In this document: positions 6,785 to 13,201 of the stretch, piece after piece
Numbering within the stretch: position 1 is the stretch's first letter
How the letters are laid out: the number at the start of each line of letters is the position of its first letter
Assembly: GCA_001509095.1 (NCBI GenBank)
Contig: LGGV01000014.1
Span: forward strand, 1 to 32,979
Direction of reading: 5' to 3'
Source of the DNA: Synergistales bacterium 58_81
GTDB taxonomy: Bacteria > Synergistota > Synergistia > Synergistales > Thermovirgaceae
DNA length: 32,979 nucleotides
The notes under the pieces: model-generated
What the model was told of the DNA's origin: nothing
Databases searched by the model: none
The model's input: only the letters and a program-made list of their open reading frames with translations
Made by a program: the position numbers and the translations under genes

Positions 6785-8617
<1,833 letters not shown>

Positions 8618-8659
8618 TTTTGTATGGGCACCGCCTTTCTGTTCTGGGAGAGAACGGAT

Positions 8660-8799
8660 GCCGTCCCTTTTGTCCCGGAGATCGCTCCCTGGTTTTGTGG
8701 GAACGGCTTCATGGCCTGACCGTTCAGGCCACCGGGGCATCCGCCGAATTTTCGATACTCCCCGGCCCTCGTCAACTGGCCCTGGCCAGTTCTGGCGCT
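8660..8799 (-). ncRNA. glmS self-cleaving ribozyme / riboswitch
   Basis: Read on the minus strand, the leader of glmS has the conserved glmS ribozyme core in the right order: AAGCGCC (cleavage expected between 8799 and 8798), a compact P1 hairpin AACTGGC/GCCAGTT, then GTTGACGAGG, TATCGA, TCGGCGGATGCC and the closing CCCCGG that pairs with CCGGGG (P2). A P3 hairpin with GGCC ends follows (GGCCTGAACGGTCAGGCC). Last comes an outer stem closed by GCCG/CGGC and TCCC/GGGA around an AAAACC-containing internal loop. I matched these blocks from memory of the Bacillus and Thermoanaerobacter ribozymes; no covariance search was run. The known function is ligand-assisted cleavage by glucosamine-6-phosphate, leading to decay of glmS mRNA. 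Confidence 0.94.
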
Positions 8800-8838
8800 T
8801 GGGCAGCCGCTAACCTCTTTCTTACTCCCCCGACGCTG

Positions 8839-9729
8839 TCACCTCCCCGTGACCCCGAGCCTTTCGAGCTCAGAGAGGACTATGCCCCGCAGGTCCTCTC
8901 GCTTCAGGGCCATGCCCAGAGTGGCCCTCAGCCAGCTCTCCATGGTTCCGCAATCAAACCTCTCACCTTTGTACATGACCCCCCAGACGGGTTCATCCTC
9001 CGCCAGGGACCTGATCGCGTCGGTGAGCTGGATCTCCCCTCCGGCACCAAAGCCTGAATTCCTGAGGTGACGGAATATACCCGGTGAGAGCACGTACCGG
9101 CCCATCACGGCGTGCCGGCTCGGCTCACTGCCTGGTTCGGGCTTCTCTACTAGGTCCTCTATCCTGAAAACGCCGTCCTCGACCTGTTTACCCCTAATTA
9201 TCCCATATCTGAAGGTTTCCTCCGGAGGGACCTCTTCCAGGGCCACAACCGATCCACCAAGCCTCTGGTGGACCTGGACAAGCTGCCCGAGCACCGGGGG
9301 CGTCCCGGGAGGAGTTACCATTACGTCGTCAGGGAGGATCACACCAAAATAGCAGCCCCTGCAGAAAGGCTCCCCGCACAGGACCGCGTGACCCAGCCCT
9401 AGTGGTTCCGGCTGTCTGACGTAGGCGAAATCTGCCATCTGGCTTATCTCTCTTACAAGCCGTGCAGAATCTGCCTTGCCCTTTTCGATGAGTATCTGCT
9501 CGAGCTCTATGGACCTGTCAAAGTAGTCCTCGATAGCCCTCTTGCCCCTGCCTGTGACGAAGACGATCTCACCGCACCCTGATCGGACGGCCTCCTCGAC
9601 CCCGTACTGGATAAGGGGCCTGTCGATAAGGGGCAGCATCTCCTTGGGGATCTCCTTTGTGGCAGGCAGGAACCTGGTGCCCATTCCTGCGACGGGGAAG
9701 AGGCATTTCCTGACATCACTCACCGTCAA
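8839..9729 (-). CDS. galU: UTP--glucose-1-phosphate uridylyltransferase
   Basis: A protein of about 296 residues that makes UDP-glucose for envelope polysaccharides. The nucleotidyltransferase signature is clear: FPVAGMGTRFLPATKEIPKE at about 11-30, PLGLGHAVLCG near 109, ILPDDVM near 131, VEKPEPG near 195 and GEIQLTDAI near 234. The start is uncertain between TTG at 9729, which overlaps the glmM stop as TTGA and has GGGGAGG 9 bases upstream, and GTG at 9723, which has GAGGGG 8 bases upstream. The difference is two residues. It lies between glmM and the glmS ribozyme, an insertion relative to the Bacillus cdaA-cdaR-glmM-glmS order. Confidence 0.95.
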   Translation of the reverse strand: MTVSDVRKCLFPVAGMGTRFLPATKEIPKEMLPLIDRPLIQYGVEEAVRSGCGEIVFVTGRGKRAIEDYFDRSIELEQILIEKGKADSARLVREISQMADFAYVRQPEPLGLGHAVLCGEPFCRGCYFGVILPDDVMVTPPGTPPVLGQLVQVHQRLGGSVVALEEVPPEETFRYGIIRGKQVEDGVFRIEDLVEKPEPGSEPSRHAVMGRYVLSPGIFRHLRNSGFGAGGEIQLTDAIRSLAEDEPVWGVMYKGERFDCGTMESWLRATLGMALKREDLRGIVLSELERLGVTGR

Positions 9730-11132
9730 CGCCCCTCGCCTCCCCTGATATCACGGACAAGGGCTTCTTCGCCGCTTCTCCTTATCTCTTCGAAGAGCGC
9801 CTCTGATACGGCCCTCAATAATTGATCTTCCCGGGCTTCAACGAGGACACGCACGAGAGGTTCCGTGCCAGAGGGTCTGACAAGGACCCTGCCCAGTTCA
9901 CCCAGCTCCTGGCAGGCTCTTTCTATCGCCCCCTGCACCCCCGGGAGACCGAGAAAGGATTCCTTGTCAGTGGCATGGAAATTCTTCAAAACCTGTGGGT
10001 ACCTCCCGAACCTGTCCACCAGGGTGTTGATATCCTCCCCCAGCATTGAACATGCTGAAAGGAACAGAAGACCGGAGCTGAGCCCGTCGCCGGTGGGGAA
10101 GAAATCGCTGGCGATAACATGCCCCGACTGCTCCCCCCCGAGAGAAGATCCCGAGGATCTCATGGCATCGAGAACATACCTGTCGCCCACGGGGCAGCGT
10201 GTCAGGGGTATCCCGTCCTGGGCGAGCTTCTCCTCCAGGGCCTTGTTGCTCATCACCGTCGCCACCACGCCGTTCCCCAGCCTGCCCTCGCCGTGAAGCC
10301 ACCTTCCAAGGACCCAGAGGATGATATCTCCGTCGATGATCCTGCCTTTGGGATCGACGAAGAGAACCCTGTCAGCATCTCCGTCAAGGGCCATCCCCAG
10401 GGAATGTCCCCCCGAAAGGACCGCAGACGCCACGTTCTCCATGTGGATGACCCCGCAGCCGTCGTTGATGTTATTCCTTTCGGGTCTGTCGGATATGATG
10501 ACAGCCCTGTGGAAGCAGCGCCGGAAGACCATGGCTGCGGCCTCCGAAGCCGCCCCGTGGGAACAGTCGACCACGATGGAGAGCTCCGGGTCCACCCCGA
10601 AGCAGCAGGTCCTGACCACGTGTTCCGTATACTCCGAAAGGATCTCGGGCCTGGAAGCGACCGATCCCACTGACGAACCTGTGGGTCTCCAATCGTCGAA
10701 GACCACGTCAGCCAGATACTCCTCGATCTCAGCCTCGTCGTCATCGCTCAGTTTGCAGCCGTCCATTCCGAGGAACTTGATACCGTTGTATTCGAAGGGG
10801 TTATGGGAGGCACTTACAACTGCACCGCCGTCGCAGGATAGCCTTCTGACGACAAAGCTTACACCTGGAGTGGGGATCACACCCAGGGAGACCACTTCCG
10901 CTCCGGCGGAGAGAAATCCCGAGACAAGGGCCATTTCGATCATGGGACCTGAACGCCTTGTGTCCCTCCCGACTGCTATGACCGGACGGGACACTCCTCT
11001 TTCGATAAGGAAGAGTGCATAGGACCTGCCCAGGCGAAGCGCCATTTCGGGGGTCATGAGCCCCCGGTTGGCCACATCCCTGACGCCGTCGGTCCCGAAG
11101 AGACACCTGCATTTCCTGGAAGTTTCCTGCAT
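9726..11132 (-). CDS. glmM: Phosphoglucosamine mutase
   Basis: A 468-residue alpha-D-phosphohexomutase that converts glucosamine-6-phosphate to glucosamine-1-phosphate. Domain 1 carries the phosphoserine loop VSASHNPFEYNGIKF with the active Ser at 109. The metal loop DGDADR lies at 250-255 in domain 2, the sugar-binding loop GGEQSGH near 334 in domain 3, and the phosphate-binding RPSGTEPLVR near 427 in domain 4. The ATG at 11132 has GAGGTG 6 bases upstream. It follows cdaR by 28 bases. In Bacillus and Listeria, GlmM binds CdaA and inhibits it, so this order suggests the same link here. Confidence 0.97.
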   Translation of the reverse strand: MQETSRKCRCLFGTDGVRDVANRGLMTPEMALRLGRSYALFLIERGVSRPVIAVGRDTRRSGPMIEMALVSGFLSAGAEVVSLGVIPTPGVSFVVRRLSCDGGAVVSASHNPFEYNGIKFLGMDGCKLSDDDEAEIEEYLADVVFDDWRPTGSSVGSVASRPEILSEYTEHVVRTCCFGVDPELSIVVDCSHGAASEAAAMVFRRCFHRAVIISDRPERNNINDGCGVIHMENVASAVLSGGHSLGMALDGDADRVLFVDPKGRIIDGDIILWVLGRWLHGEGRLGNGVVATVMSNKALEEKLAQDGIPLTRCPVGDRYVLDAMRSSGSSLGGEQSGHVIASDFFPTGDGLSSGLLFLSACSMLGEDINTLVDRFGRYPQVLKNFHATDKESFLGLPGVQGAIERACQELGELGRVLVRPSGTEPLVRVLVEAREDQLLRAVSEALFEEIRRSGEEALVRDIRGGEGR

Positions 11133-11160: not shown

Positions 11161-12372
11161 TTACTCCGTCAGCGCATAGACAGTTACATTGGGTGGATCT
11201 ATATCGGCCAGCGAGACCCCCTTGGCACGTAGGGTGGTCTTGACGGGTACGGTGATCTTCTGGGAGACCAGGTTCGTTACATCCACGTAGACATCGATCG
11301 GACTCCCCTTGGCCTCGGCTGCATCAAGGTCTGACGGTGATCCTTCAAGGATCACGCTGACCTCGGAAGGTTCGACCCTCCAGCCGGGGTATACGCTTCT
11401 TCCGGAAAGCCTGACGGGCACCTTCGTGAAAAGTCTCCTTTCGGTCCTTTCTGCAAGCAGGATCCTCACTCGTACCGATGGGTCTTCTACAACCTGAACA
11501 TCCTCGGCGAGATCTTCAACCATAACGACCCTGGTAACGTCCGCCGAAAGTCCCGTGATGTCAATGGGACCGAGAAAGATCTGGTCAATCCTTTCGATAG
11601 ACTCAAGAGGCCCCTGGATCGTCAGCTCCGGGGGGTCCACGACCACGGCTTCCACCTGGAAATCCTTCCCCGGATCGCCCTTCAGCTCTACCCTGACCGG
11701 AACAGCCCTCCTGGGGAAACCCCTTACCAGCCTGAAAGAGAGATCCGCCTCGGAAGGTTCTATCATAAAGGGAGTTCTCTGGTCTCTGTCGGCGGACGAC
11801 ACAACCGGCAGGGTTAGATCCTTCTCCTGGAGCAGCTGTTCCAGGGTTGGGGCCACCCATACATTCTCTAGGGAGGAGAGCAAATGTTCAGGCCCCTTGA
11901 CGGTGACCTCCACGGGATCGATCCTATGCTCTTCAAGCCGGTATCCGGGGGGGAGGCCATCGGGCACAAGCATCCTGACAGGCAGCACCCTGGAAGCCAG
12001 TCGGATGAGGTTAAGATCGACGAAGGGCGGAGATACCTCGACCAGCCTCAGTCCGGAGGGAAGTATCACCTGAACAGGCCTGCGATGGGATCCAGGCCCC
12101 AGTCCCTTGAGGTCTATCTGGGACGCGATGGTTCCCGTCAGAGAGAAGGCCGTCTCTCTGGTTCCCGATACCTGGATGTCCACTTCACGGACCCCGCTGG
12201 ATACGGACATGTCGACAGGAACGTTGAGGAACTCGAGAGGTACCGTAACGGTCCTAACGACCTCGGTGCCCCGGTCAGAGGCCAGGTAGAACCAGACCAG
12301 GACAGCCACCAGAACTGAAACCACCTTGAGGAAGAGCTTGGATGACAGGAGACGGTCAATCGATCTCATCAT
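11161..12372 (-). CDS. cdaR: CdaR-type regulator of diadenylate cyclase, YbbR repeats
   Basis: A 403-residue membrane-anchored extracytoplasmic protein. One transmembrane segment (about 13-31) follows a short basic N terminus. The rest is a series of YbbR-like beta-rich repeats, each with a PP..V.L..... or PSEVSV-type edge; I see about four, starting near residues 38, 125, 225 and 310. In Firmicutes this protein modulates CdaA, encoded just upstream. The start is the ATG at 12372, with GGAGGGG 8 bases upstream, overlapping the end of cdaA by 17 bases. An ATG follows directly at 12369 and is an equal alternative. Confidence 0.9.
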   Translation of the reverse strand: MMRSIDRLLSSKLFLKVVSVLVAVLVWFYLASDRGTEVVRTVTVPLEFLNVPVDMSVSSGVREVDIQVSGTRETAFSLTGTIASQIDLKGLGPGSHRRPVQVILPSGLRLVEVSPPFVDLNLIRLASRVLPVRMLVPDGLPPGYRLEEHRIDPVEVTVKGPEHLLSSLENVWVAPTLEQLLQEKDLTLPVVSSADRDQRTPFMIEPSEADLSFRLVRGFPRRAVPVRVELKGDPGKDFQVEAVVVDPPELTIQGPLESIERIDQIFLGPIDITGLSADVTRVVMVEDLAEDVQVVEDPSVRVRILLAERTERRLFTKVPVRLSGRSVYPGWRVEPSEVSVILEGSPSDLDAAEAKGSPIDVYVDVTNLVSQKITVPVKTTLRAKGVSLADIDPPNVTVYALTE

Positions 12373-13201
12373 TCTCGGTGCCCCTCCCTGAAAAGACTGA
12401 CCCCAGCCTCTCCCTGACGACCTCCATGGCCGATCCCGTACCTGTCGCCTGGGTGAAGTAGTGCATGAGGAGCCTTCTTATCTGCCCCTCCTTCAGCTCC
12501 CTTGAAAGATGGCCGTTGATCGCAAGGGCGATCTCTCCCCGCTCCTCGGAGACTACGAGCGCCATGGCATCGGAGACCTCCGTTACGCCAAGGGCGGCAC
12601 GGTGCCGGGTCCCTATCCACCTTGAAAGGTTGCTGTTCTCCGTCAGGGGCAGGTAACACGCGGCGGCGATAACTCTCTGCCTGTCAAGAATGGTCGCACC
12701 GTCGTGGAGGGGGTTCCCCGGCCAGAAGATGGAGACCAGAAGGTCCTGGGATATCTCCCCCCCTATCTGGACGGCGGACCTCCATATATCCTTCAGGCCG
12801 GTGTCCTTCTGGAAGACCAAGATGGCCCCTATCTTCCTGCTCTGAAGGAAGAGGAGGGCCCTGGTTATCTCGTCGGTCAGCTGGGCCGCCCTCTCCTCTG
12901 CCTGACGGCGCCTCCAGATGTTGCCCCGTCCGAGCTCCTCGAGCATCCTCCTTATCTCGGGCTGGAAGACTATGGGGATGGCTATGATGAAGACCCCCAG
13001 CATCCTTCCCAGTATCCATGAGAGCGCGGTGAGCTTCATCAGCCTTGCAGTTGCGAAGAGGAGGCCGATGACGAAAAGCCCCTTAACAAGCTGCATGGCA
13101 CGGGTGTCCACAAGCAGGAGGAGCAGCCTGTAGACAATAAATGCGATTATCGCTATATCAATGAAATCCAGCCAGCGTATGGACTCAAGGATCCCGGACA
13201 A
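12356..13201 (-). CDS. cdaA: Diadenylate cyclase CdaA
   Basis: A 281-residue membrane enzyme that makes c-di-AMP from two ATP. Three hydrophobic segments are visible (about 13-30, 39-56 and 61-79). The cytoplasmic DAC domain follows (about 95-245), with both signature motifs: LHDGAT (DGA at 167-169) and GTRHRAALG (RHR at 199-201). The start codon is TTG at 13201; it has AGGAG 7 bases upstream, and no ATG or GTG in frame fits as well. The N terminus matches the CdaA family, so the TTG start is favoured. It is followed by overlapping cdaR and by glmM, the classical c-di-AMP cluster. Confidence 0.95.
   Translation of the reverse strand: MSGILESIRWLDFIDIAIIAFIVYRLLLLLVDTRAMQLVKGLFVIGLLFATARLMKLTALSWILGRMLGVFIIAIPIVFQPEIRRMLEELGRGNIWRRRQAEERAAQLTDEITRALLFLQSRKIGAILVFQKDTGLKDIWRSAVQIGGEISQDLLVSIFWPGNPLHDGATILDRQRVIAAACYLPLTENSNLSRWIGTRHRAALGVTEVSDAMALVVSEERGEIALAINGHLSRELKEGQIRRLLMHYFTQATGTGSAMEVVRERLGSVFSGRGTENDEID

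Follow-up and report, generated by a model that had tools for sequence, protein, structure and literature searches.

We found that the minus strand of the window, the 32,979-nucleotide stretch of Synergistota DNA analysed here, carries at positions 8810-8651 what is very probably a genuine glmS ribozyme-riboswitch, lying in the 5′ leader of glmS within a probable operon and exerting feedback on amino-sugar synthesis, a reading to which we give a probability of about 95%. The glmS ribozyme is an RNA switch that cuts itself and thereby lowers the output of the enzyme opening amino-sugar synthesis, and it uses glucosamine-6-phosphate, the product of GlmS, as its self-cleavage cofactor.

The first-pass annotation had claimed a complete glmS ribozyme at 8660-8799, directly 5′ of glmS, and had proposed a covariance search with the Rfam model as a check. 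This search, run against all 4227 Rfam families, matched the segment to RF00234 (glmS ribozyme) from one end of the model to the other, at 89.3 bits for a gathering score of 37 bits (E-value 1.4e-19). The minimal ribozyme, G8798 to 8661 on the minus strand, agrees with the annotated span, and the glmS ATG follows at 8617, about 44 nt past the end of P4. The window's ribozyme belongs to a known family and is an ordinary representative of it, not an exotic one. Its features, together with those of the gene that it precedes, are as follows.

8651..8810, minus strand: glmS ribozyme, full Rfam span (RF00234, 89.3 bits, model 1-167)
8798..8799, minus strand: predicted self-cleavage site, A8799 (-1) / G8798 (+1), placed relative to the invariant AGCGCC
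8774..8791, minus strand: P1 hairpin of 7 bp, 8791-8785 with 8780-8774, loop 8784-8781; 6/7 pairs covary
8767..8773, minus strand: GACGAGG core block, identical in 59/60 relatives
8732..8765, minus strand: P2 (8765-8760 with 8737-8732) around P2.1 (8755-8752 with 8747-8744); P2 covaries at 6/6 pairs
8712..8731, minus strand: P3 stem-loop (8731-8727 with 8716-8712), from the helix test on the alignment
8661..8706, minus strand: P4 (8706-8700 with 8667-8661) and P4.1 (8692-8686 with 8681-8675), from the same test
8631..8637, minus strand: probable glmS ribosome-binding site AAGGCGG; AAAGGCGGTG recurs upstream of glmS in several relatives
6785..8617, minus strand: glmS, glutamine--fructose-6-phosphate transaminase (TIGR01135, 804 bits, cut-off 418)

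The core blocks lie in the order in which they had been annotated, with AAGCGCC at 8800-8794, GTTGACGAGG at 8776-8767, TATCGA at 8757-8752 and TCGGCGGATGCC at 8747-8736, followed by P3 and P4/P4.1. All elements of the class core (the AGCGCC cleavage region, GACGAGG, AUCGA and UCGGCGGAU) are present in the window and near-invariant among 60 Synergistota ribozymes, with AGCGCC kept in 60/60, GACGAGG in 59/60 and UCGGCGG in 60/60. The active-site guanine of the class presumably sits within the GACGAGG block (8767..8773), and the cut predicted between A8799 and G8798 coincides with the site named by the first-pass annotation.

For the structure, helices P1, P2, P2.1, P3, P4 and P4.1 were placed on the window sequence and then tested on an alignment of 60 ribozymes, all from the window's phylum. 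We found compensatory, two-sided change in 29 of the 36 base pairs, and a covariation score of 0.503 compared with a mean of 0.181 for shuffled alignments and at most 0.17 for controls in which the structure was slid along the alignment. Paired cells amount to 90.4%, compared with 33-55% in the slid controls. The slid controls are biased in favour of the structure, which draws in part on the Rfam model and in part on the window's own sequence; the compensatory changes are independent of this derivation. Covariation supports P1, P2, P3, P4 and P4.1, with P3 the weakest (70-78% of cells paired), and P1, P2, P2.1, P4 and P4.1 were recovered independently by RNAalifold. The UCGGCGG strand is able to pair with the 5′ CGCC at 8797-8794 to form P2.2; the complementary letters of the P2.1/P2.2 double pseudoknot are thus present, and being invariant they make covariation speak neither for nor against it. 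The single-strand fold is only modestly better than shuffles (z = -1.8), as expected for a pseudoknotted RNA of GC-rich sequence.

The peripheral elements follow the class as well. P1 is indeed a 7-bp helix with a 4-base loop as first annotated, whereas its description as unusually short does not hold, since the hairpin measures 18 nt compared with a median of 19 (range 14-53) in the 60 relatives; a special short-P1 variant is thereby ruled out. Enlarged P1 hairpins of 33-53 nt, compared with the usual 18-19, were observed in the Synergistota ribozymes L017, L118, L134, L143 and L136-L140. P4.1 ends in the GNRA loop GCGA (8685-8682), kept as GNRA in 59/60 relatives, and the P4/P4.1 element also holds an adenine-rich internal loop. 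In P1, C8789-G8776 corresponds to the pair on which L4 docks, and it is C-G in 59/60 relatives; the contact between the GNRA loop and this C-G receptor in P1 is important in the B. subtilis glmS ribozyme (PMC11602151).

Could the element be a decayed relic that has lost cleavage? A single A-C mismatch in the window's P4.1 would fit such decay. Nevertheless, the window keeps every near-invariant core block and retains the docking elements, and compensatory change maintains the structure across the phylum, which together make a relic very improbable.

Next we consider the genes on the same strand. These run cdaA-cdaR(ybbR)-glmM-galU-[ribozyme]-glmS, with glmU beyond glmS at 4642-3167, and those upstream of the ribozyme are:

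8839..9729, minus strand: galU, UTP--glucose-1-phosphate uridylyltransferase, directly upstream of the ribozyme (TIGR01099, 329.1 bits, cut-off 326.8)
9726..11132, minus strand: glmM, phosphoglucosamine mutase (TIGR01455, 465.7 bits)
11161..12372, minus strand: ybbR/cdaR, CdaA-regulator-like protein (PF07949)
12356..13201, minus strand: cdaA, diadenylate cyclase (TIGR00159, 221 bits, cut-off 189; PF02457)

The Bacillus arrangement is cdaA-cdaR-glmM-ribozyme-glmS. The window therefore has the gene order of Bacillus and its relatives, with the ribozyme likewise between glmM and glmS, plus galU, and the first-pass view that the ribozyme stands outside a Firmicutes-type setting has to be abandoned. 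A search for a promoter immediately upstream of the ribozyme gave a lone consensus match, which falls inside the ribozyme and is at chance level.

The Synergistota host that had been suggested is borne out by the nearest named GlmS, which is 81% identical and comes from Synergistaceae UBA4088. The accompanying implication that glmS ribozymes are rare in this phylum fails: RF00234 was found in 63 of its 188 genomes, a lower bound given the strict search filters. Each of the ten families in the window's order has carriers, and in the window's own family 10/10 genomes carry it. One of the 63 carriers (G005) lies outside the order, on a short contig and with a GlmS that forms a long branch. The glmS start lies 17-45 nt after the end of the Rfam model in 62 of the 63 carriers, and the remaining one is a contig-end fragment; in G027 (L015:1-485) what comes after the ribozyme, at a contig end, is a piece that matches GlmS only from residue 249 on, an assembly error or a rearrangement. 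Directly upstream of the ribozyme we found galU in 47 carriers, a difference from the Bacillus operon, glmM in nine, something else in six and a contig end in one, and the order glmM-galU-ribozyme-glmS is common to most families of the window's order.

Among the non-carriers, a motif search of 58 glmS leaders, a few with little upstream sequence, did not detect the ribozyme core, and 40 of these leaders gave no glmS match when scanned with all Rfam models at E-values up to 10. The motif search is the less sensitive of the two, because it missed outgroup ribozymes in L034, L035 and L111 that Rfam found; neither search revealed a hidden diverged ribozyme in the leaders that it covered. Only one of the 58 (G002) has galU upstream of glmS. 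A glycine riboswitch (61.5 bits) was observed upstream of glmS in G036 (L145:917-1025), on the opposite strand of the locus.

GlmS trees with 147 and 52 rows, in which "Synergistales" is the label for the window's order, both gather the order's carriers into a single Synergistota clade (100% support) that is separate from the sampled Bacillota. Non-carriers are of three sorts: a clade that sits within this Synergistota GlmS clade, either among the carriers or next to them; a family f6 set (L185, L188-L202) whose GlmS is nested in Clostridia beside Lachnospiraceae; and G002, outside the window's order. The f6 set lacks both the ribozyme and the operon linkage, and its GlmS was apparently replaced by horizontal transfer. 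As the GlmS of the carriers groups with its own phylum, the ribozyme looks inherited and not recently acquired, and vertical inheritance within Synergistota is most likely. The simplest reading is that the ribozyme is ancestral in the order and was lost once with the operon linkage and once through the Clostridia-type GlmS replacement. The count of one loss, and no more, inside the Synergistota GlmS clade is only as firm as the tree, in which several forks are open.

These data also bear on whether a ribozyme-glmS cassette was recently transferred from Firmicutes, in which both the family and the operon order are best known. The separation of the carriers' GlmS from the sampled Bacillota disfavours such a transfer, as do the spread of carriers over all ten families and the gene order shared by most of them, and we regard it as having only a slim chance of being correct.

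The idea that no RNA element exists here and that GC-rich DNA, coding or intergenic, matched the model by chance can be dismissed in view of the E-value and the covariation across 60 relatives, even though the glmS frame formally reaches back into the ribozyme, as far as an ATG at 8740. The homology of GlmS begins at MCGIVGY (8617), as in relatives, and GlmS requires a cysteine adjacent to its initiator methionine; with the frame open over 8740-8618, automatic annotation may make glmS 41 codons too long.

We propose that the ribozyme, within the 5′ leader of glmS, is carried on a probable cdaA-cdaR-glmM-galU-glmS transcript. Plentiful glucosamine-6-phosphate would bind the pre-folded core as cofactor and the RNA would cut itself at A8799/G8798, separating the upstream genes from the glmS message, which, with a new 5′-OH end starting GCGCC, would be destroyed in the manner of RNase J1, the enzyme that degrades the 5′-OH glmS fragment in B. 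subtilis. The net effect would be feedback control of amino-sugar synthesis. Co-transcription, cleavage, the glucosamine-6-phosphate response and message decay are attributed to this host by analogy with the family. Within the host's family, RNase J scores above the cut-off in 9/10 genomes, being whole in nine relatives and a contig-edge fragment in the host, and RNase Y does so in 9/10 genomes, the host included.

It is conceivable, if somewhat doubtful, that the main value of the Synergistota ribozyme lies in cutting the operon into separately controlled parts, glmS being removed by an excess of glucosamine-6-phosphate while the cdaA-cdaR-glmM-galU message persists. If true, this would account for the absence of the ribozyme in both main lineages with glmS outside the operon, namely the clade within Synergistota and the lineage with the Clostridia-type replacement.

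Synergistota is a diderm, amino-acid-fermenting phylum. The window's ribozyme shares with the RF00234 class (B. subtilis, T. tengcongensis, B. anthracis) the full model match, the invariant core, the A/G cleavage site (predicted here), the P2/P2.1/P2.2 core (its double pseudoknot predicted from complementary letters), P3, P4/P4.1 with its GNRA loop, the P1 docking pair and the position in the glmS leader. It differs from the RF00234 examples in the compact P1 loop (4 nt) and the diderm, non-Firmicutes host, all within the known range of the class, and the case leaves the known mechanism of the glmS ribozyme unchanged. What it adds is a glmS ribozyme documented as probably ancestral to the window's order within Synergistota, and one phylum with and without the ribozyme that offers a natural comparison. 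A CodY regulon has been reported in Synergistetes (PMC9318921), which is likewise a Firmicutes-associated regulator in a Gram-negative phylum, although as a protein regulator its mechanism is unrelated to that of the ribozyme.

Our literature search, whose reach did not extend to the class surveys of McCown (2011, 2012), found no paper tying glmS ribozymes to Synergistetes or Synergistota; we claim no novelty of distribution, since Rfam finds Synergistota members easily and these surveys lie beyond the search. Outside the phylum, a Coriobacteriia (Actinomycetota) MAG has glmM and glmS with a high-scoring glmS ribozyme lying between them (L033:3742-3896, 99.6 bits), and its GlmS is the second-ranked match and the first outside Synergistota. 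Furthermore, a glmS leader from Chloroflexota (Anaerolineales; L111:3438-3745) gives a weak RF00234 match of 42.1 bits over 308 nt, a length that suggests a large insertion in that ribozyme.
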